Shown: positions 3,427-24,308, counted from the stretch's first letter. The stretch is DNA of 24,308 nt from a virus (IMGVR_UViG_3300013126_000236:1-24308); one strand, 5' to 3'. The notes: generated by a model not told the origin, from the sequence alone. Translations and numbers: made by a program.

Positions 3427-3833
3427 ACACCCTAACTCGTTTGGTAGAAATGATTTTAAGAGGTCAAAACGACAAATTTAAAAGCGTTCTTCAAGAAGAG
3501 CTTAGAGAACGTGCTGCTGTTTTGATGGAAAAGGTATACCAAACTGAAGCTAAAAGAGCATTAGAAATGTGTGAAACAAAAGAACCCAAATATCCAGAAG
3601 AAAACACCATTTCTACTAAACAGTCAGACAAGCCTACTTTTATACCAGAGTCTTCTTATCGATTAAAAGATGGTAATGTGGGAATACTTACTACGGAAGA
3701 AAAACAATTAGTTATTAAACTACATGAAAGTCTAAATATTGATAATCAAGAAAGAATGGTAAAATTATTATCAGAATCTGTAGAATCGTTCAATAAAGTG
3801 CTAAAACTAGCAAAAATGCATAACAAAAAATAA
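3423..3833 (+). CDS. Small prohead core protein candidate (gp68 position)
   Basis: A 136-residue charged, mostly helical protein overlapping the portal gene by four bases. T4 places the prohead core genes 67 and 68 between 20 and 21, and the length matches T4 gp68 (141), but I do not see clear residue-level identity. The N-terminal third (NDKFKSVLQEELRERAAVLM, about 16-35) resembles the equivalent segment of the next gene's product. It contains several [L/I]-X-E tripeptides (LVE, LQE, LRE, LME), the cleavage signal used by gp21-type proteases. A role as a minor internal scaffold component is inferred from position, size and these sites. Confidence 0.5.
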   Translation: MNTLTRLVEMILRGQNDKFKSVLQEELRERAAVLMEKVYQTEAKRALEMCETKEPKYPEENTISTKQSDKPTFIPESSYRLKDGNVGILTTEEKQLVIKLHESLNIDNQERMVKLLSESVESFNKVLKLAKMHNKK

Positions 3834-3842
3834 GGATTTCTT

Positions 3843-4187
3843 ATGAGTCAGGACAATAACATAAATTCATTTATAGGATTTGTAGTAAACGAAAATTTAG
3901 CTCAAGCTAAAGATATTTTAAATACCGAACTTCAGGCTCGTCTTTCCGCAGCTTTAGATGCTAAATTTGATGAATACGCTCCTAGCCTTTTTGAAAAATG
4001 GGATGCAGAAAAAGCAGACAAAAATAAAGATGGCAAATTATCAGACTGGGAAAAAGCATCAACCGAATGGGCTTCTGAAGGAGAAGAAGATGTGGAAGAG
4101 GACGAGGAGCAATCTGAGGAAGAAGAAGAAGACGAGACCGAAGACGAAGAAGCAGATGAAGATGATGAAGAAGAAGAACAAGACTAA
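3843..4187 (+). CDS. gp67: Acidic prohead core protein (gp67-like)
   Basis: A 114-residue protein with a helical N-terminal part (NENLAQAKDILNTELQARLS, about 17-36) and an extremely acidic C-terminal tail made almost only of Glu and Asp (about residues 78-114). T4 gp67, a minor prohead core protein cleaved during maturation, has the same two-part design: a short helical head with a similar ND-LVAARKLF pattern and a long Asp/Glu tail. Position between portal and protease also matches. Here it is longer than T4 gp67 (80). AAGGA precedes the ATG. The reading frame at +1 over the Glu-rich tail is open only because of the GAA/GAT composition and is not a gene. Confidence 0.72.
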   Translation: MSQDNNINSFIGFVVNENLAQAKDILNTELQARLSAALDAKFDEYAPSLFEKWDAEKADKNKDGKLSDWEKASTEWASEGEEDVEEDEEQSEEEEEDETEDEEADEDDEEEEQD

Positions 4188-4201
4188 AAAGAGAAATACC
4201 G

Positions 4202-4849
4202 ATGAAGCTAATAACCGAGACTGTTGAACAAGTAGAATTTTTAACCGAAGCCGCTAGTGACGGTACCAAAAATTATTTTATTGAAGGTACATTCATGCAA
4301 GCGGACACTTTAAACAGGAATAAAAGATTATATCCTAAAAATATTCTTTTAAACGAAGTTTCCAGATACACCAAAGAATATGTGAATCAAAGCAGAGCTT
4401 TCGGTGAATTAAATCATCCATCAGGACCAACAGTAAATCTAGACAGAGTAGCTATTATCATTAAAGAACTAAATTGCAATGGCTCTGATGTTTACGGAAA
4501 AGCTAAAGTGATGAGCACTCCCATGGGCGAGATTGTTAAAAATCTTATCAGTGAGGGTGCTAGATTAGGCGTATCTACCCGTGGAATGGGTTCGTTAAAA
4601 CAAAGAAACGGTTACAACGAAGTTCAACCCGATTTTATGTTATCTGCTGTGGATCTTGTTGCCGATCCTTCTGCTCCTAATGCATTTGTGAATGGTATTA
4701 TGGAAGGAAAAGAATGGATATGGAATAATGGAATTCTTGTAGAACGTCAGATCGAAGAGTATCGACGTGAATTAAACGCAGCTTCTGTTAAAGAGTTAGA
4801 AAATAAAGGAATTAAATTGTTTGAAGACTTTTTAAGGAAACTTAAATGA
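4202..4849 (+). CDS. gp21: Prohead core protease (gp21-like)
   Basis: Serine protease of the herpes/T4 prohead type that assembles in the core and cleaves scaffold, capsid and core proteins during maturation. The sequence aligns well with T4 gp21 and has a similar length (215 versus 212). Visible motifs are YFIEGTFMQADTLNRNKRLYP (about 25-45), GELNHP with the likely catalytic His72, GVSTRG with the likely nucleophile Ser125, and VDLVADPSAP (about 150-159), which probably supplies the acidic residue. Its own N terminus contains LTE at 14-16, a fit to the [L/I]-X-E cleavage rule, so self-processing after residue 16 is likely. It overlaps the next gene by four bases. Confidence 0.95.
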   Translation: MKLITETVEQVEFLTEAASDGTKNYFIEGTFMQADTLNRNKRLYPKNILLNEVSRYTKEYVNQSRAFGELNHPSGPTVNLDRVAIIIKELNCNGSDVYGKAKVMSTPMGEIVKNLISEGARLGVSTRGMGSLKQRNGYNEVQPDFMLSAVDLVADPSAPNAFVNGIMEGKEWIWNNGILVERQIEEYRRELNAASVKELENKGIKLFEDFLRKLK

Positions 4850-7942: not shown

Positions 7943-8443
7943 ATGGCAGGATATACCGGTTCTCATAATCCTTTATTAGTAAATTATTTTCAATTTTCAT
8001 TAGACCGATCTCCAGGTCTGGTTTATTTTTGCCAAACTGTAAATCTGCCTGGAATAGTATTTGGCACAGCAGAACAACCTACAACCATGGGTCATCCTGT
8101 TGTTATACCTACAGGAGCATTTCGGTTTAAAGATTTAGAACTAACGTTTCGTGTGGATGAGAATTTAAAAAATTGGACAGAAATATACGACTGGATACGA
8201 ACTTCTGGAAATTATGTTTCAGATGAATCCACATTAAGATACAACAAAAAAACTTCTGGTGCTTCTTTATTAATAACTAATAGTACATACGCACCTAAAA
8301 TACGTGTAGATTTTAAACACGTTTTTCCAAAAATTTTAGGTGATATAAAGTTTGGAGTAAACACACAATATTCAACAGAAGTCCTTTCTACTGTTGTGTT
8401 TGCGCACACAGGATATACCACAACAGTACTTGCAAACGCGTGA
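7943..8443 (+). CDS. Tail-tube-like structural protein, putative tail completion protein
   Basis: A 166-residue beta-rich protein. The pattern CQTVNLPGIVFGT, a Pro/Gly segment, then FKDLELTFRVDENLKNWTEI YDWI is typical of the tail-tube fold shared by gp19 and gp54-type proteins, and the overall layout repeats parts of gp19 in this window (a VNLPG-type strand, then W-x-x-IY). Marine T4-like phages often carry a gene between 23 and uvsY annotated as tail completion protein gp3 (T4 gp3 is 176 residues); size and place agree, but residue identity to T4 gp3 was not recognised. A role at a tail end or in the baseplate is inferred. No Shine-Dalgarno sequence precedes the ATG. Confidence 0.55.
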   Translation: MAGYTGSHNPLLVNYFQFSLDRSPGLVYFCQTVNLPGIVFGTAEQPTTMGHPVVIPTGAFRFKDLELTFRVDENLKNWTEIYDWIRTSGNYVSDESTLRYNKKTSGASLLITNSTYAPKIRVDFKHVFPKILGDIKFGVNTQYSTEVLSTVVFAHTGYTTTVLANA

Positions 8444-14467: not shown

Positions 14468-15204
14468 AAAAGAAAAAGAAAAAAGTGTCACGCCGTATTG
14501 GTCGTGGTGATTCTGTAGACTCTCTAATCATGGGCAGTGAGCCTGTGTGGAAGGATGCAGATAAACTAACACCAGAAGAACTGAATACCAAGATTCTAAA
14601 AGCAATCAACTGGTACAGTTATTCATGCGATAATAACATGTGCAAGCCATGGGTTATTGATTGGATGATGAAGAACGGTTATTCTAAGAAAGATATCAAG
14701 GCTGCAGCAGCATGTGACATTAATGCCATGGAGTTTATCTATATTGGCAGTCGCTGTCGTATCATGAATCTTGGTGGTACGCTTCGTCCAGAAACCGTAG
14801 ACATGGTAAAAAAGAATGTGGATCAAATCATTCACCAAGGGCTGACTCGTCCAGCCAAAATTGAAGATCCTAACAAGGAGAAAGTGAATGTCCAAGAACG
14901 TATTGCCAAGAAAAGTATTGAATACATGGCGGTTATTGAAGGGCGTGTCGATCAACTTTACGGTTTGGCTGTTAAGGATCAATTAAAGAATACGGATCAC
15001 GAAGAATGGTTGCGTGGTGAAGGTATAAAACCTGTACACTTTAAGAAGTTAGTTAAGGTACTAGAACCTCACATCAAAGAACTAAAAACTGCATATAAAG
15101 GTCAAGATCTGGACCTAAAACAAGGATTTGATTTTCTCGGTAAGCGTAAGATCAAACAAATGATAACTACTTTAGAGGAATTTAAAGACATTTTAAATGG
15201 CTAA
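14464..15204 (+). CDS. Unassigned 246-residue protein between gp46 and the RNase H gene
   Basis: I cannot assign a function. The N terminus is strongly basic (MKKKKKKVSRRIGRG), suggesting nucleic acid contact. A helical region with INWYSYSCDNNMCKPWVIDW (about 49-68) and MMKNGYSKKDIKAAAACD (about 69-86) follows, then a segment rich in Lys and Glu, and a C-terminal GFDFLGKRKIKQMITTLEEF. Isolated cysteines do not form a clear zinc site. It is coupled to gp46 by an ATGA overlap and overlaps the following gene by eight bases, so it is part of the replication-recombination operon. Codon use is like gp46. A replication accessory role is a guess from context. Confidence 0.75.
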   Translation: MKKKKKKVSRRIGRGDSVDSLIMGSEPVWKDADKLTPEELNTKILKAINWYSYSCDNNMCKPWVIDWMMKNGYSKKDIKAAAACDINAMEFIYIGSRCRIMNLGGTLRPETVDMVKKNVDQIIHQGLTRPAKIEDPNKEKVNVQERIAKKSIEYMAVIEGRVDQLYGLAVKDQLKNTDHEEWLRGEGIKPVHFKKLVKVLEPHIKELKTAYKGQDLDLKQGFDFLGKRKIKQMITTLEEFKDILNG

Positions 15205-15517
15205 TTACGGAACAATTTTTAAAGTAGTAGACGCTACCGGAAAGTGCATACAATACTCGAAAGGAGATATTGTATATAAAAATGGAGAGGCATATATTGC
15301 AAGTCGTGATCCGGATATTTGCAAATCTCCTGAGCATAAAAATTCTGGTTGGGAGCCTCTTCAAAACGAAAGAAACGGAACAGCTGTTACATTTTTTAAT
15401 TCCACGACGCCTCCTGCACGAATAATTCAAGGGGATGAGTGGTTTAATCCAGATACGGGAAAATTATACAAATATATTAAAGACAATGATTCTGAACAAT
15501 GGGTACAAATCTTTTGA
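15197..15517 (+). CDS. Small protein with carbohydrate-binding-like and tail-fibre-like motifs
   Basis: A 106-residue protein in two parts. The first half (YSKGDIVYKNGEAYIAS to SGWEPL, about 20-53) resembles the short chitin-binding type 5/12 modules, with the pattern Y-x-x-GD-x-V-x-x-x-G-x-x-Y and a Trp. The second half has GDEWFNPDTGKLYKYIKDND then SEQWVQIF (about 78-106), a motif very common in phage tail fibre and neck proteins (GD-x-WF-x-x-x-TG-x-LY). Its place inside the replication operon is unexpected for a virion protein. No signal peptide or membrane segment. Starts eight bases inside the previous gene. Confidence 0.65.
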   Translation: MANYGTIFKVVDATGKCIQYSKGDIVYKNGEAYIASRDPDICKSPEHKNSGWEPLQNERNGTAVTFFNSTTPPARIIQGDEWFNPDTGKLYKYIKDNDSEQWVQIF

Positions 15518-18228: not shown

Positions 18229-18620
18229 ATCCTTTTGATTTTTTAAATTCCATAAATCAAACAAAAATTCCACTTATGGACGAAGATCCGGGGTGCGAAC
18301 GAGAATATAATCCATTTTTAGCTAACCGAGGATTGTCGTATTTCTCGGATACTATATTCTTAGCCAATGAAATGAACAGGCTATCCGGTTTGGGTAAAAA
18401 GCCTCAGTACGATTATCTACGCCTGTCTGTACGTGCCCGTAAGCGTTACAGTAAATGGATCAAGGACGAAACCAATGACCGTATAGACGCTCTAAAGACT
18501 CTATACGGGTACAGCCACACCAAAGCCAAACAGGTGGTAGATCTGATCTCTGAAGACGACTGGAAAGCTATTTTTGCTCGACTAGATCAAGGTGGCACAA
18601 ATACACAAATTCCTAAATAA
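18225..18620 (+). CDS. gp62: Clamp loader small subunit (gp62)
   Basis: Non-ATPase subunit that bridges the gp44 spiral. Recognised by position directly after gp44 (ATGA overlap) and by the pattern NPFDFLNSINQTKIPLMDED near the start, YNPFLANRGLSYFSDTIFLA (about 28-47), and a basic helix with RLSVRARKRYSKWIKDE (about 66-82). Length 131 is clearly shorter than T4 gp62 (187), as in several marine T4-like phages; the missing part would be C-terminal. It ends in DQGGTNTQIPK. No frameshift is evident. Confidence 0.9.
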   Translation: MNPFDFLNSINQTKIPLMDEDPGCEREYNPFLANRGLSYFSDTIFLANEMNRLSGLGKKPQYDYLRLSVRARKRYSKWIKDETNDRIDALKTLYGYSHTKAKQVVDLISEDDWKAIFARLDQGGTNTQIPK

Positions 18621-18658: not shown

Positions 18659-19063
18659 ATGGAACCCGAAGATATTTTTGATGGCCTTGGAGTGGAAGTC
18701 AAACTAAAAACTAAAGACGACTTTCTCAAGGTGAAAGAGACACTTACCCGAATGGGAGTGTCTTCCAAGAAAGAAAAAAAACTATACCAAAGCTGCCACA
18801 TCCTCCATAAGCGAGGACGTTATGCTATTATGCATTTTAAAGAAATGTTAGATCTAGATGGCCTAGAAACGGATATTGATGATACAGATATTGGTCGTCG
18901 TAACATGATTGTAAAGCTGCTTGTAGAATGGGGACTGGTAGAAGCGGTAGATCCAGAAGAATATGCCGAACCTATTATTTCTCTAGCACAACTAAAAATT
19001 ATTCCTCATAAAGAAAAGAAAGATTGGCAATTGGTGCCTAAATATCATATCGGGAACTCTTAA
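18659..19063 (+). CDS. regA: Translational repressor RegA
   Basis: Binds AU-rich translation initiation sites of its own and several early phage mRNAs and blocks ribosomes. Identity with T4 RegA is high: DDFLKVKETLTRMGVSSKK (about 20-38, T4 has EDFLKVKETLTRMGIANNK), LYQSCHILHKRGRYAIMHFK (about 41-60), WGLVEAVDPEE, and the end DWQLVPKYHIGN. An N-terminal extension of about ten residues makes it 134 long versus 122. No Shine-Dalgarno sequence; the start lies in an AT-rich stretch (GATTATTATGG), a plausible autoregulatory site. In T4 the next gene is the DNA polymerase; here a sugar-modification cassette follows after two bases. Confidence 0.97.
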   Translation: MEPEDIFDGLGVEVKLKTKDDFLKVKETLTRMGVSSKKEKKLYQSCHILHKRGRYAIMHFKEMLDLDGLETDIDDTDIGRRNMIVKLLVEWGLVEAVDPEEYAEPIISLAQLKIIPHKEKKDWQLVPKYHIGNS

Positions 19064-19065
19064 TT

Positions 19066-19704
19066 ATGCAAACAGAAGTGATTTCTTTTTATAGTGATAT
19101 AGATGGTAAAACATACTACAGTGACCATGCTAAAAGATTGTCTAAACAACTAAGCGATCTGAGCATTCCTTATGATTTTAGAGAAAAACAATCTCTAGGA
19201 TCGTATCAACAAAATTGTTTAAGCAAACCACAATTCATTTATCAATTATTGATTCAAAAACAAAAACCTATTGTTTGGTTAGATATTGACTCGGATGTAC
19301 GAAAATCGTTAAACGTTTTTGATCAGTTTTATAATAATACAGATATTGCTGTTGCTTGTTCTCATCCTAAATTGCATGCAGCAAAAGCATCGCCAATTTA
19401 TTTTGCATTTAATTCTAAAGTGCTTGAATTTTTACAGCATTGGTCATTTCTTGCAAAACAGATGGCAAAAAGTGGACAATGGTTTGATCATGAAGCACTC
19501 ATTGGAATTCTTCATTCTTTTTATCAAAAAGAAGGATTTCAAATGAAATTTATAGGACCAGAATATTGTGTATGGCCAGGTCATGAAAATGAAAATAGTG
19601 TTATTGTAATGGGATTGGCTGATGTGGAATCTAAAAAACAAGCCCTAAAAGGACTAGGAATGAGTGAGGAATTAATACAATGGCAGAGCCCCGGCACAAA
19701 ATAA
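19066..19704 (+). CDS. Putative glycosyltransferase with DxD motif (copy 1 of a paralogous pair)
   Basis: A 212-residue protein of the nucleotide-diphospho-sugar transferase (GT-A) type. The hallmark VWLDIDSD (70-77) supplies a DxD metal and nucleotide-sugar site after a hydrophobic strand. Other visible features are SLGSYQQNCLSKPQFI (43-58), KASPIYFAF (107-115), and QWFDHEAL (138-145), a likely acceptor or catalytic loop. The same segments recur in the 20545-21192 product. It starts two bases after regA and its end overlaps the next gene by 25 bases. It has no signal peptide or membrane segment, so it should act in the cytoplasm. Donor sugar and acceptor are unknown. Confidence 0.75.
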   Translation: MQTEVISFYSDIDGKTYYSDHAKRLSKQLSDLSIPYDFREKQSLGSYQQNCLSKPQFIYQLLIQKQKPIVWLDIDSDVRKSLNVFDQFYNNTDIAVACSHPKLHAAKASPIYFAFNSKVLEFLQHWSFLAKQMAKSGQWFDHEALIGILHSFYQKEGFQMKFIGPEYCVWPGHENENSVIVMGLADVESKKQALKGLGMSEELIQWQSPGTK

Positions 19705-20558
19705 GAGGAATTGGATTACCGTTCGAAGCACAGTATTCTTCTTGTTCAAATTTAAAACCAACAAAATTTGATTGGTGTTTAGATGCAGGAGATTGCGATA
19801 TCCATGTCGATCATGGACTATTGTTTCAACCAGATTTATCAATATTCAAAGAAAAAAGATATGGATGGATATGTGAGTCAAAGGATATAATACCAGAGGT
19901 ATATAATTTTATTATTTTAAATCATAAGGTATTATTTAATAATTTTTATAATAAAATATTTACATGTGACAGATCTTTATTATTACTAAATTCTAATTTT
20001 AAATTTGTTCCTAATGGAAGCAATTATCCTTGGATAAAAAAAGAAAATTGGTCCTCATTTATTGATGATAAAAATAAAATATGTTCTATGTTTGCGTCTC
20101 CTAAATTAGCAACACCGGGTCATGTGTATAGACACGAAATTGCAAAAATTGCAATAAGTAAAGGATATGATGTTTATGGGGGTGCTCATGGCAGTAAAAG
20201 AACAGTAACAGACCCACAAAATCCATGGAATACCAAAATAGATGGAATGAAATCTTATATGTTTAATATTGTGATTGAAAATTCTGTTTATGATGATTAT
20301 TACACAGAAAAATTAACAGACTGTTTTGCTTCTGGTACTATACCAATCTATTCCGGTACAGATAATATACCATCTATTTTTGATAAAAATGGTATTATTA
20401 AATTAGAAAAAGGAAAAGAAGAAGAAATATTAAATAGCTTAACAGAAGAATTGTGGCAGTCTAAACGTTCTTCGATAGAAAATAATTTAAAAGCATTGAA
20501 TGATCTAAAAATGGCCGATGATGTTTTATTTGAAAAGGTACTAAATGTCCACAATTAA
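19680..20558 (+). CDS. GT10-like fucosyltransferase family glycosyltransferase
   Basis: A 292-residue protein whose C-terminal part fits the conserved alpha-1,3-fucosyltransferase (GT10) signature: FNIVIENS (195-202) followed by YYTEKLTDCFASGTIPIY (207-224) and the GTDNIPSIFD segment. This is the GDP-sugar binding region of a GT-B enzyme. KICSMFASPKLATPGHVYRHEIAK (in two stretches, about 133-156) and YDVYGGAHG (163-171) also match the family layout. The N-terminal domain is not recognised. The start overlaps the previous gene by 25 bases with GAGG nearby. Donor may be GDP-fucose or another GDP-sugar; no GDP-fucose synthesis gene is in the window. Confidence 0.78.
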   Translation: MAEPRHKIRGIGLPFEAQYSSCSNLKPTKFDWCLDAGDCDIHVDHGLLFQPDLSIFKEKRYGWICESKDIIPEVYNFIILNHKVLFNNFYNKIFTCDRSLLLLNSNFKFVPNGSNYPWIKKENWSSFIDDKNKICSMFASPKLATPGHVYRHEIAKIAISKGYDVYGGAHGSKRTVTDPQNPWNTKIDGMKSYMFNIVIENSVYDDYYTEKLTDCFASGTIPIYSGTDNIPSIFDKNGIIKLEKGKEEEILNSLTEELWQSKRSSIENNLKALNDLKMADDVLFEKVLNVHN

Positions 20559-21192
20559 ACTGATAAGTTATTATTCTGATCTACCGGGCTTAGATTATTA
20601 TAAAAATTGTTCTGAAGAGTTTTTACAAAATTGTTTATATTTTAATATAGATGCACATGTACAAAATCTAGAAAGTGCCGGTTCGTATAGGCTAAATTGT
20701 TTAAGAAAACCGCAATTTATTTTAGATTGTTTGATAAAATTTAATACAGCTGTAATGTGGCTAGACATAGACAGCAAAATACACACAAATCTTCCAGTAT
20801 TAAATAATAATTTAAATTTTGATATTGGTCTTTGTTATTTGGGGTTTGGAAAAGAATTATTGACTAATCTACCACCAAAAGCATCTCCAATCATATTTAA
20901 TAATACAGAATTAGGAATTTATATTTTAAAACAATGGATACATGAATGTGAAAATAACATAAAAACAAATGGACACTTTTTTGATCATGAAGTGTTAGTT
21001 GATTTTATACTTCCTAAATTATCTAATATTAAAGTATTAGGATTGGATCAAATGTATTGTATGCCAGATTCTGCAAATTTTGCTAATATTCCAAGACACG
21101 TCACGATGGGTATAGCAAAACACGAACACAAGAAACAAGGACTTCGTGAGATGGGCCACGATGAAGCCAGAATACAAATGGAGATTGGATGA
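20545..21192 (+). CDS. Putative glycosyltransferase with DxD motif (copy 2 of a paralogous pair)
   Basis: A 215-residue protein clearly related to the 19066-19704 product along its full length: SYYSDLPGLDYY, AGSYRLNCLRKPQFI (45-59), MWLDIDS (71-77), PKASPIIF (111-118), FFDHEV (145-150), and a C-terminal MGIAKHEHKKQGLREMG that matches MGLADVESKKQALKGLGM in copy 1. The DxD site is intact, so both copies are probably active, perhaps with different acceptors. It overlaps the GT10-like gene by 14 bases and the following gene by four. Sequence divergence shows an old duplication, not a recent one. Confidence 0.75.
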   Translation: MSTIKLISYYSDLPGLDYYKNCSEEFLQNCLYFNIDAHVQNLESAGSYRLNCLRKPQFILDCLIKFNTAVMWLDIDSKIHTNLPVLNNNLNFDIGLCYLGFGKELLTNLPPKASPIIFNNTELGIYILKQWIHECENNIKTNGHFFDHEVLVDFILPKLSNIKVLGLDQMYCMPDSANFANIPRHVTMGIAKHEHKKQGLREMGHDEARIQMEIG

Positions 21193-21857
21193 TGAATATT
21201 AATTTATTTTTTGAATTTTTTAATTCTAAAAATTTAAATAGACAAGAAGAATTTGATTTTTGTATTAAAACAAACATAAATTCTGGATTGTTTAATAAAA
21301 TTTATACTTTAACCAATACCACAAATATTCCTTCATATCTTTTAAAGGCACAACAAGAAAATAAATTAACAATAATTAATACGTCTTCTACCCGATTGGA
21401 ATATCAAGAAGTTTTTGATATCAGTAATAAGTTAACAAAAGATAATGAAATAAATCTTATATGTAATACCGATATATGGTTTGACGACACAATCAACTTG
21501 TTAAAAGATAAAATGACACCAGAAATTGCTATAGGATTGAGTCGATGGTATCCACCAAACGATTACTATATGGTTAATGGGTTTCACACCAATGGAAAAG
21601 CAGCTCCAGAATCAAATGATACTTGGGGATGGGTAGGAAAATGTAAAGTAACCAACGGAACATTTCCTATAGGTTATACTGCATGTGATTGCAGAATAAT
21701 GAAATGTTTTGAAGAAGCAGGATATAGAGTATACAATCCAGCAAAATCTATTAAAACTTGGCATAATCACACTGGTCGTGGAGTAAATCCGCCTACCGTT
21801 CCGGGACCTTACTGGACAGGACCAAAAGAACACCATACGATTGAGGATTTAAAATGA
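21189..21857 (+). CDS. Putative glycosyltransferase, GT2-like
   Basis: A 222-residue protein (221 if the second of two adjacent ATG codons at 21192 is used). NLICNTDIWFDDTI (89-102) is a strand followed by an acidic D-x-x-x-D site as seen in phage and marine bacterial glycosyltransferase-like proteins. AIGLSRWYPPND (114-125), DTWGWVGKCK (144-153), and a late WHNHTGRG (191-198) are further conserved-looking segments; the His-rich motif may bind metal. It overlaps both neighbours by four bases. I assign it to sugar transfer from the motif and the cassette; the exact family is uncertain. Confidence 0.62.
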   Translation: MMNINLFFEFFNSKNLNRQEEFDFCIKTNINSGLFNKIYTLTNTTNIPSYLLKAQQENKLTIINTSSTRLEYQEVFDISNKLTKDNEINLICNTDIWFDDTINLLKDKMTPEIAIGLSRWYPPNDYYMVNGFHTNGKAAPESNDTWGWVGKCKVTNGTFPIGYTACDCRIMKCFEEAGYRVYNPAKSIKTWHNHTGRGVNPPTVPGPYWTGPKEHHTIEDLK

Positions 21858-22525
21858 ATATATCTTTATTGTTTTTAGATGGTCTAGGAAAAGAGACAAC
21901 ACAATACGAAAATTTAATTAAAAATATTTTTAAAAAACATATAGAACCATTAAAAATTAAAATTAATAAAATAATATTTTTAACATCAAATGAATCATAT
22001 AAAAATAATGATTGGATAATACATCATATACCAAAATTAAATTATATTCAATATTCTAATTTATTGTTTAATGGTCTTGGTAATTATTTTGATGACGATA
22101 AAATAATTCATATTCAGACAGATGGATTTATGCAAAATAATGATAAATGGAATGACGAATATTTGGCATATGATTATATTGGAGCACCATGGCCAGCAAC
22201 ATGTAATTGGTGTAAAGGAAATCCATTAGTAGGAAATGGTGGATTTTCTATAAGATCTAAAAAACTTTACAATTTAACAAAAAATGTAATGTTTTTGAGC
22301 GGTCCAAATTCTCAAATTTTAACAACAAATGATGATGTTTTTATTAGTTTTACAATTAGAGAATATTTAGAACAAAATGGGATTAAATTTGCTCCAGTAG
22401 AATTAGCTAAAATATTCTCTGTGGAAATACCAATATCCAATGATCATACCCTGGCATCTTCTTTTGGTTTTCACGGAAAACACTACATGGAACAGAATGA
22501 ATTTTTAAGAGATTATTTACAATGA
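21854..22525 (+). CDS. DUF5672-like glycosyltransferase
   Basis: A 223-residue protein with the full pattern I associate with DUF5672: IIHIQTDGF (84-92), YDYIGAPW (106-113), VGNGGFSIRS (126-135), NDDVFISFTI (159-168), and KFAPVELAKIFSVE (178-191), then SSFGFHGKH (202-210). This domain is a GT-A-like fold found beside capsule and lipopolysaccharide genes. The QTDG segment replaces the usual DxD. GAGGA precedes the start and both ends overlap neighbours by four bases. The gene is one of the most AT-rich in the window. Confidence 0.78.
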   Translation: MNISLLFLDGLGKETTQYENLIKNIFKKHIEPLKIKINKIIFLTSNESYKNNDWIIHHIPKLNYIQYSNLLFNGLGNYFDDDKIIHIQTDGFMQNNDKWNDEYLAYDYIGAPWPATCNWCKGNPLVGNGGFSIRSKKLYNLTKNVMFLSGPNSQILTTNDDVFISFTIREYLEQNGIKFAPVELAKIFSVEIPISNDHTLASSFGFHGKHYMEQNEFLRDYLQ

Positions 22526-23196
22526 AACTAATATCATTCAGTCTTTGGGGAGATAATCCCATGTATACACAGGGTGCAATTGCTAATTGTAAATTAGCGG
22601 AAGAATTATTACCTGATTGGATTTGTAGATTTTATATTGGGAATAACACCAATAAACAAATTATAAATCAATTAAAACGATTTAAAAATACACAAGTAAT
22701 AGAAATGAACACAGAAGGCACCATGAAATCTATGATATGGAGATTTATTCCATGCTCAGAACCGAATGTGGATGTGGTTTTATCTAGAGATACGGATTGC
22801 AGAATGTCTCCTAGAGAAATAGAAGCAATAAATATGTGGTTAGCTTCAGACAAAGATTTTCATATTATACGAGACCACCCGTACCACAATGCCCCTATTT
22901 TGGGAGGATTATGGGGAGCTAGAAATAAAGTATTACAAGAAATGACTTCTTTATTACACGAATTTGAAAACACCAAAACTCCTGATAGAAAACAATATGA
23001 TCAAATATTTCTTGGAAATGTTGTTTACAATAAAATAAAAGATAAAACTTTTGTTAATGATGAATTTTTTGAAAAAAAGAATAAGTTAAAAACCCCCAGA
23101 AATCCAACTGGTGTTTATTTTTTAGGAGAAATATTCAATGCAGATGATTCATTTTACAGTCAAGAACACAGAGATTTAATCGATAGGAATTCATAA
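22522..23196 (+). CDS. Putative glycosyltransferase with SRDTD motif
   Basis: A 224-residue protein carrying VVLSRDTDCRMSPRE (85-99), a DxD-type nucleotide-sugar site extended by a conserved R-x-S-x-RE segment, and FHIIRDHPYH (113-122) followed by APILGGLWGAR (124-134). The same arrangement is familiar from bacterial capsule and surface polysaccharide gene clusters. A YDQIFLGNVVY segment (about 161-171) fits the D/Q-rich helix of the same family. It overlaps the DUF5672-like gene by four bases and is followed after one base by the next gene. Acceptor and donor unknown. Confidence 0.7.
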   Translation: MKLISFSLWGDNPMYTQGAIANCKLAEELLPDWICRFYIGNNTNKQIINQLKRFKNTQVIEMNTEGTMKSMIWRFIPCSEPNVDVVLSRDTDCRMSPREIEAINMWLASDKDFHIIRDHPYHNAPILGGLWGARNKVLQEMTSLLHEFENTKTPDRKQYDQIFLGNVVYNKIKDKTFVNDEFFEKKNKLKTPRNPTGVYFLGEIFNADDSFYSQEHRDLIDRNS

Positions 23197-23197
23197 T

Positions 23198-23698
23198 ATG
23201 AACGGTCAAACAAAATTTGTATACGATAAATTATCGTCAAATAACATAAAAACAGTTTTAAATATAGGATTTAGAGACGACAGCAACAAAACTATAATGA
23301 ACCACTGTATTACCACAGGAAAGACTTGGACAGTGTTGGAAATATGGGAACAAAATTGTATTAATATGGCAGCTATAGGAATAGATGTTATTAATGCTGA
23401 TGTTAGACAAATTTCAAAAATACAAAAAACATATGATGCTATTATCTGGTTACACGGACCAGAACATATTTTATGGGAAGAATTTTTAGTTTGCCGAAAG
23501 GATATAGAACAAAAAGCAAATAAATTAGTTATATATCAAGCTCCTATAGGAGAGTATCCTCAAGAAGAATTATACGGTAATCCATACGAACAACATGTAG
23601 TTTCTTTAAATTCTAAAATGTTTAAAGATCTTGGTTATCAAACAATAGATCATATAGAAAACGGAGAAAGAACTTTTAGCGCTTTTATAGAAAAATGA
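23198..23698 (+). CDS. Putative SAM-dependent methyltransferase-like protein
   Basis: A 166-residue protein with a Rossmann-like outline: strand and glycine loop VLNIGFRDDSN (20-30), a second strand ending in an acidic residue VLEIW (46-50), INADVRQI (65-72), and YDAIIWLHGPEH (79-90) in the place of motif IV. The last 60 residues have alternating strands. The glycine loop is poorer than in classic class I enzymes, so cofactor binding is not certain. In glycan cassettes such genes usually cap or decorate sugars. It overlaps the next gene by four bases and has no clear ribosome site. Confidence 0.55.
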   Translation: MNGQTKFVYDKLSSNNIKTVLNIGFRDDSNKTIMNHCITTGKTWTVLEIWEQNCINMAAIGIDVINADVRQISKIQKTYDAIIWLHGPEHILWEEFLVCRKDIEQKANKLVIYQAPIGEYPQEELYGNPYEQHVVSLNSKMFKDLGYQTIDHIENGERTFSAFIEK

Positions 23699-24308
23699 AT
23701 GTTTTAATAATACAAGAAAACGGCAGGCATGATGCAAACAGACAATTTAGAGAATGTTTTTCTTTACAACGGGCTTTTAATTATCATGGACATAATGCAG
23801 ATGTTTGGGGATTAGGGCATAAAAATTACAGTGAAAATATAGATTTTAATTCGTATGATCTTATATTTAATTTAGAAAATTATGGAGATAATTGGCTTCC
23901 TGATTTGAAGCAAATAACAAAACCAACAAAAGTGTTATGGAGTATTGATGCGCACTGTCGAGGAGTTCAACCATACGAACAAATTTTTAAAACTGGCAAA
24001 TACATTTATCTTCTACATTCTACCAAAGATTTTGTAAAAGAACCTTACCATAAATGGTTTCCTAATGCATACGATGATGAACTGATAAAACCATTAGAAA
24101 TACAAAAAACTATTCGTTTTGGTTTTTGTGGTAACTATGCTAATAGAAAAGAAATACTAGAATGGTTACAGCAAAATTATAGTTTACATTTAGATATTTT
24201 TGTTATAGGACAACAGATGGTTCAAGCTATTAATTCCTATAAATGTCATTTTAATTTAAATATAGCAAATGATATTAATTATCGTTCTTTTGAAACTATA
24301 GGTTGTGG
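23695..24308 (+). CDS. Glycosyltransferase, CgeB/GT4-like, cut by the window end
   Basis: Open from the ATG at 23695 (overlapping the previous stop in ATGA) to the end of the window, with 204 whole codons and no stop. N-terminal MNVLIIQENGRHDANRQF and LQRAFNYHGHNADVWGLG resemble the first Rossmann domain of GT-B enzymes. Further on, IRFGFCGNYANRKEILEWL begins the second domain, and the visible end YKCHFNLNIANDINYRSFET is the typical donor-binding motif of CgeB/YkvP-like glycosyltransferases, where the last Glu contacts the nucleotide sugar. The C terminus lies outside the window. Confidence 0.75.
   Translation, partial: MNVLIIQENGRHDANRQFRECFSLQRAFNYHGHNADVWGLGHKNYSENIDFNSYDLIFNLENYGDNWLPDLKQITKPTKVLWSIDAHCRGVQPYEQIFKTGKYIYLLHSTKDFVKEPYHKWFPNAYDDELIKPLEIQKTIRFGFCGNYANRKEILEWLQQNYSLHLDIFVIGQQMVQAINSYKCHFNLNIANDINYRSFETIGC

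Follow-up and report, generated by a model that had tools for sequence, protein, structure and literature searches.

What do the sugar-modification genes of an uncultured T4-like phage act on when they stand directly behind regA? The question is raised by the IMG/VR virus record IMGVR_UViG_3300013126_000236, 24,308 bp in length (the whole stretch, called the window below), in which regA is followed by a cassette of eight genes, g1 to g8, and which stops within the eighth. A reading made from the sequence alone (the sequence-only reading) had taken these eight genes as a unit and had left three targets open: a virion surface protein, modified DNA bases or the host surface. We consider it fairly likely that the eight genes form the 5′ portion of an island for O-glycosylation of the virion, namely of its tail fibres, with a hypervariable glycan extension. 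The phage's own enzymes probably cover its tail fibres with a variable sugar chain, because the island of its relatives continues into a protein-glycosyltransferase gene and collagen-like tail-fibre genes. The eight genes are thus real, and as a unit they are incomplete; evidence from relatives points to a virion surface protein, speaks against modified DNA and leaves some room for the host surface.

As the contig stops at 24308, where the assembly and not the island ends, the sequence beyond it can be read in relatives only. A RegA search gave 80 close loci, and the island order in these relatives is g1 and g2, variable genes, a gene for a family GT2 glycosyltransferase with tetratricopeptide repeats (GT2-TPR), a fibre-assembly-like gene, collagen-like fibre genes, dut and then gene 43. 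The whole island between regA and dut-gene 43 spans 23-32 kb, and the window covers the first 5 kb of its own. Gene 43 lies 23.0, 25.9, 26.2 and 32.4 kb beyond regA in four relatives, against 1.5-1.8 kb in the two cultured kyanoviruses for which both genes could be located, which bears out the sequence-only claim that the cassette interrupts the regA-43 neighbourhood and settles, for the relatives, where it ends and that gene 43 follows. The count of eight genes is an artefact of contig truncation, since relatives have 12-17 genes ahead of the GT2-TPR gene.

The entry to the island is fixed and its interior is not. In the window, g1 (19066..19704) starts 2 nt past the anchor gene regA, a translational repressor (18659..19063; Pfam PF01818, E 6e-41; phrog_242), and g2 follows at 19680..20558, all on the + strand. 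The first open reading frame (ORF) after regA belongs to the g1 or g2 family in all 72 relatives with an ORF there, 64 of which have both. Among 21 loci (the window's own is one of them) whose RegA is 95% identical or more, g1 and g2 have a homologue in 100% of pairs and upstream genes in 90-100%, while at positions 4-12 the figure falls to 4-31%; the ~10-14 genes past g1 and g2 are almost wholly different between phages with near-identical RegA. Clustered at 60% identity, the 529 island ORFs of 81 loci (again counting the window's) form 220 clusters, which would be a large source of new glycosyltransferases. Glycosyltransferase families GT2, GT10, GT11, GT25, GT34 and GT47 occur in the relatives’ islands, together with GDP-mannose dehydratase, epimerases, FkbM methyltransferases and a hexapeptide acetyltransferase. 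This range of sugar enzymes, which takes in fucose-type enzymes and tailoring transferases, appears compatible with an oligosaccharide of several sugars, as the variety of folds had suggested in the sequence-only reading. In one clade (L040-L081, RegA 76-82% identical) the entry pair is reversed, g2 preceding g1.

At the far end of the island, the relatives’ GT2-TPR protein has a GT2 domain (PF00535, E 4e-11) followed by TPR matches, and close relatives share ~80% identity in it. Between it and the fibres stands a protein of 136 residues that resembles tail-fibre-assembly families. The large fibre proteins carry collagen repeats, and some are rich in Gly-X-Thr, which accounts for 19 of 25 triplets in one and 78 of 90 in another. 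A separate GT2-TPR search gave 54 loci, 45 of them usable. A fibre-assembly-like or collagen ORF lies no more than three ORFs after GT2-TPR in 44 of these 45 loci, compared with 111 of 578 other ORFs of these loci, and since loci within one lineage are related, the 44 are not 44 independent events. In a second lineage, GT2-TPR stands directly ahead of a ~1,100-residue collagen-like fibre, in a gp14/gp13/gp17 locus with no cassette adjoining. From this gene adjacency we infer that the fibre is the acceptor of GT2-TPR, and the window's phage, judged by its relatives, would carry the same downstream part. The GT2-TPR gene is broken into two or three ORFs in L136 (9001-9345) and L148 (8995-9507), which may reflect frameshifts, assembly errors or decay.

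Which reaction might GT2-TPR catalyse? The solved structures nearest to its profile are GmaR (E 2e-17) and SunS (4e-13), with generic GT2s far behind. Both are protein or peptide glycosyltransferases, although their acceptors, flagellin and a bacteriocin, differ, and GmaR, the Listeria flagellin N-acetylglucosamine (GlcNAc) transferase, has an additional antirepressor domain (PMC9638930). Clostridioides difficile SgtA, which combines a GT-A domain with C-terminal TPRs and is encoded just upstream of bclA3, transfers GlcNAc onto Thr of collagen repeats in vitro (PMC7157674). The relatives’ GT2-TPR shares with it the domain plan and the placement of the gene directly upstream of a collagen-like Gly-X-Thr surface protein, and in the proposed scheme also an initiating sugar on Thr that is extended later. 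SgtA-BclA3 is a bacterial spore system, however, whereas the phage locus is a tail-fibre locus with a variable cassette of 12-17 genes and a predicted activity. In FlmG, the TPR part binds the acceptor (PMC7591256).

Bacterial relatives of GT2-TPR are often found near Gly-X-Thr collagen genes, whereas the Collagen model was silent in 11 of 14 control genomes. Among 80 cellular GT2-TPR relatives, 15 have a Gly-X-Thr collagen ORF no more than 5 kb away (L172, L173, L178, L181, L183, L184, L186, L187, L191, L195, L213, L216, L221, L242 and L244). These loci come from Streptomyces, Bacillus, Clostridium, Paenibacillus, Erythrobacter and others, Thr occupies 47-98% of their Y positions, and they are candidate SgtA-BclA-type pairs across several phyla. 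A GT2-TPR relative (36%) is also present in the jumbo soil phage Tunturiibacter phage Tunturi_5 (L164), on the opposite strand ~3.7 kb from an annotated 4.4-kb tail fibre gene.

Starting from what is directly observed (the genes present and their order, their conservation, families and folds, and the late-promoter-like elements), we infer a scheme of four steps. The island would be expressed late, from gp55-type late promoters before regA, before GT2-TPR and before some fibre genes. GT2-TPR, related to GmaR and SunS and SgtA-like in build and placement, would then put the first sugar on Ser or Thr of the fibre proteins encoded just downstream, probably in their Thr-rich collagen-like Gly-X-Thr stretches, while its TPR part holds the fibre. 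The products of g1 and g2, together with phage-specific glycosyltransferases, nucleotide-sugar enzymes, methyltransferases and acetyltransferases, would extend and cap the chain. Because the cassette is shuffled among close relatives, the fibre glycan would vary from phage to phage, and this may alter adsorption, protect the fibre or mask the virion. We give roughly even chances to the fuller claim that the lineage possesses a complete protein O-glycosylation system of its own, in which an SgtA-like initiator beside the fibres and about a dozen exchangeable soluble transferases produce a combinatorial virion glycan serotype.

The predicted timing bears on the choice between targets. The T4 late promoter is TATAAATA (PMC2984593), and in the window this element lies 38 nt before gp18 and 30 nt before gp22, with CATAAATA ~32 nt before gp23. 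Before regA, within the last part of gene 62, the window has the T4-late-promoter-like CCTAAATA (18612..18619, + strand), two mismatches from TATAAATA. This weaker form is kept in most of the window's clade; other relatives have CATAAATA or TATAAATA at the matching place, and the perfect element occurs in 19 of 50 distinct regA upstream regions. In relatives, TATAAATA is also found ahead of GT2-TPR, often at equal distance, and 0.2-0.65% of random island 60-mers contain it. If these putative elements are active, the genes would be expressed late, which is more readily expected of virion glycosylation than of DNA modification.

DNA is a frequent substrate of phage glycosyltransferases, and the cassette sits in the replication block. 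Both points speak for enzymes that glycosylate hydroxymethylated bases in the manner of the T-even phages. We regard this as very improbable, since it leaves the fibre association unexplained and the thymidylate synthase/dCMP hydroxymethylase family is missing from the relatives: none was found in the contigs of nine of them (44-168 kb), with positive controls, though the records may be incomplete. Searches for the Tet_JBP and T4 beta-glucosyltransferase families also gave no match, but their controls were equally silent.

Might the cassette instead make or alter lipopolysaccharide (LPS) or O-chain sugars of the infected cell and so block superinfection? The pelagimyophage host-recognition cluster, a hypervariable T4-like island in which tail fibres and glycosyltransferases are mixed, has been interpreted as modifying the host surface (PMC7029224). 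It lies between VrlC and gp14, whereas the island of the window's lineage runs from regA to dut-43 and so occupies a different location, with fixed entry genes g1 and g2 and a fixed GT2-TPR next to the fibres; the second GT2-TPR lineage does have its gene next to gp14. LPS-type clusters of the cyanophages S-SSM7, S-SM2 and P-SSM2, which are T4-like as well, combine GT10-type transferases with epimerases and methyltransferases, but they lie near hli03 or phoH and their proposed role is LPS or stuffer DNA (PMC3037559). Relatives of g2 occur in cyanophage clusters at 31-35% identity. GT25 and the nucleotide-sugar enzymes of the relatives would fit modification of the host surface, too. In a hydropathy scan of the 529 island ORFs, with no family search made for such membrane proteins, just nine showed any strongly hydrophobic segment. 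Polytopic proteins of the flippase, polymerase or ligase type are therefore not apparent, and the membrane flippase, polymerase, ligase and GtrA/Gtr set of an O-antigen or gtr-type cluster was not found. Together with the strict linkage of GT2-TPR to fibres and the late-promoter-like elements, this makes modification of the host surface rather unlikely.

A division of labour is also conceivable, in which GT2-TPR alone adds one sugar to the fibres and the cassette serves LPS or another virion protein, the two sharing a recombination hotspot only. The second lineage, with its GT2-TPR and no cassette, is consistent with this, as is base composition (GC content 37-40% in GT2-TPR, like the fibres, compared with 28-31% in the cassette). 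Yet in four relatives both parts stand side by side on one strand in the interval from regA to dut-43, and in C. difficile the chain that SgtA-type initiation starts on BclA3 is then extended (PMC7157674); we consider such a split improbable.

Several points weigh against fibre glycosylation itself. The contig ends ahead of any GT2-TPR or fibre gene, and the evidence on the acceptor comes from relatives. The fibre glycan is a prediction from gene content, and co-location is no proof that fibres are acted on by the cassette and not by GT2-TPR alone, the more so as the second lineage lacks a cassette. The window's own late-promoter-like element is imperfect, and a perfect late promoter is missing from most variable genes. 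These genomes have collagen-like genes at other places too, and GT25 and other enzymes typical of LPS synthesis occur in the islands.

Glycosyltransferases of T4-like phages are usually interpreted as LPS or DNA modifiers. The fixed unit of a protein glycosyltransferase and fibres in dozens of phages, with its neighbouring hypervariable sugar cassette, leads to another prediction, that the tail fibres are glycoproteins with phage-specific glycans. If true, this would bear on host range, on virion recognition and on the role of phage ‘LPS clusters’, and phages, like giant viruses, would be seen to make their own virion glycans. The chlorovirus PBCV-1 encodes soluble glycosyltransferases, among them A064R, for its own virion glycan, although PBCV-1 is a eukaryotic virus with an N-glycan on its capsid, and the Mimivirus collagen glucosyltransferase L230 similarly serves a virus-encoded collagen-like protein but acts on hydroxylysine and has another domain arrangement (PMC9614988). 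Each part of the island belongs to a known kind. The combination of a fixed GT2-TPR/fibre unit with a hypervariable cassette between regA and gene 43 was not found described in the papers searched (most subscription journals were outside the scope), and none of the phage tail-fibre glycosylation papers among them describes the locus.

Within the window, recomputed coordinates match exactly the eight coupled, co-directional genes of the sequence-only reading, with overlaps of 25, 14, 4, 4, 4 and 4 nt and one 1-nt gap. The cassette contains seven closed ATG ORFs of at least 160 amino acids, compared with none in 500 mononucleotide shuffles, and it is AT-rich as described (29.2% GC versus 37.8% upstream). 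Pairwise dN/dS against relatives is 0.04-0.09 for g1, 0.18 for g2 and 0.11 for both g4 and g5. Values so far below 1 indicate purifying selection and rule out that the cassette is stuffer DNA. Six of the seven proposed glycosyltransferases (all but g4) are supported, with unequal strength; neither g4 nor g7, the proposed methyltransferase, was placed by Pfam or profiles.

The AlphaFold model of g1 (pLDDT 91.5, pTM 0.88) has the PBCV-1 capsid-glycan glycosyltransferase 2p6w as its best PDB match (E 3e-9, TM 0.65), with 176 residues of 2p72 aligned at Z 16.2 and a root-mean-square deviation of 3.1. Its nearest fold is domain 1 of A064R, a match at 11-14% sequence identity that is not proof of the same reaction. 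GT8 is among its profile matches, and no match was found in cultured phages. The g2 protein is a member of the GT10 fucosyltransferase family (PF00852, E 8.7e-9, 35.7 bits against a curated cut-off of 23.9), with a predicted fucosyltransferase-like specificity. A g1 paralogue with 31% identity and a conserved DxD, g3 (20545..21192), belongs to the same GT-A family.

The remaining genes, too, all lie on the + strand. For g4 (21189..21857), which has invariant residues N93, D95, H192 and H194, there was no Pfam match and a profile search for PDB relatives came back empty, so that no fold is assigned. A probable glycosyltransferase, g5 (21854..22525) is a DUF5672 protein (PF18922, E 3.8e-17), a family that Pfam lists as of unknown function, and its profile found no PDB relative. 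For g6 (22522..23196), the model (pLDDT 76, pTM 0.77) matches glycogenin (Z 12.9) and the WrtF fucosyltransferase (Z 12.7), a glycogenin-rich VIA-align list that suggests a GT-A fold only, not a function. Both g1 and g6 combine the GT-A fold with an invariant motif, DxD or, in g6, RDTD. Methyltransferase-like by eye alone, g7 (23198..23698) gave no Pfam match and no significant PDB relative by sequence or profile. The GT-B-like g8 (23695..24308, codons to 24306) is open at the contig end and matches PF13524 below the cut-off (E 3e-4); its full-length relative in L102, 56% identical, does so at 1e-17, and g8 is therefore a putative PF13524-like protein. A PHROGs search gave nothing useful for the cassette proteins. 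A protein search with g8 for an extension past 24308 found L102 alone, whose sequence after its own cassette differs; That contig is T4-like as well, and its sugar cassette is another one (epimerase, C-methyltransferase and GT2-like ORFs).

Outside the cassette, the window consists of a block of T4-like structural and replication genes: tail sheath, tail tube, gp20-gp23, uvsY, uvsW, gp55, gp47, gp46, gp45, gp44, gp62 and regA. Its major capsid protein shares no more than 57% identity with that of any cultured phage, the nearest being Synechococcus and Prochlorococcus T4-like phages, and a near-identity search against cultured phages gave just two 118-base matches at 78%; the source lineage is an uncultured T4-like phage. 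Sugar or accessory genes enter the clamp-loader block of relatives too: L038 has a g6-type glycosyltransferase gene between gp44 and gp62 (3710-4354), and G002 has an additional ORF of 186 amino acids in the same interval (64686-65246; L105, inside L027). Inside the window's replication block, between gp46 and an exonuclease, a protein of 106 amino acids (15197-15517) matches the L-shaped tail-fibre-assembly family phrog_3304 and has no BLAST similarity to the 136-residue island protein of the relatives. Past gp23, at 7943-8443, lies a gene for a second tail-tube-family protein (phrog_45), the other being encoded at 1238-1828.

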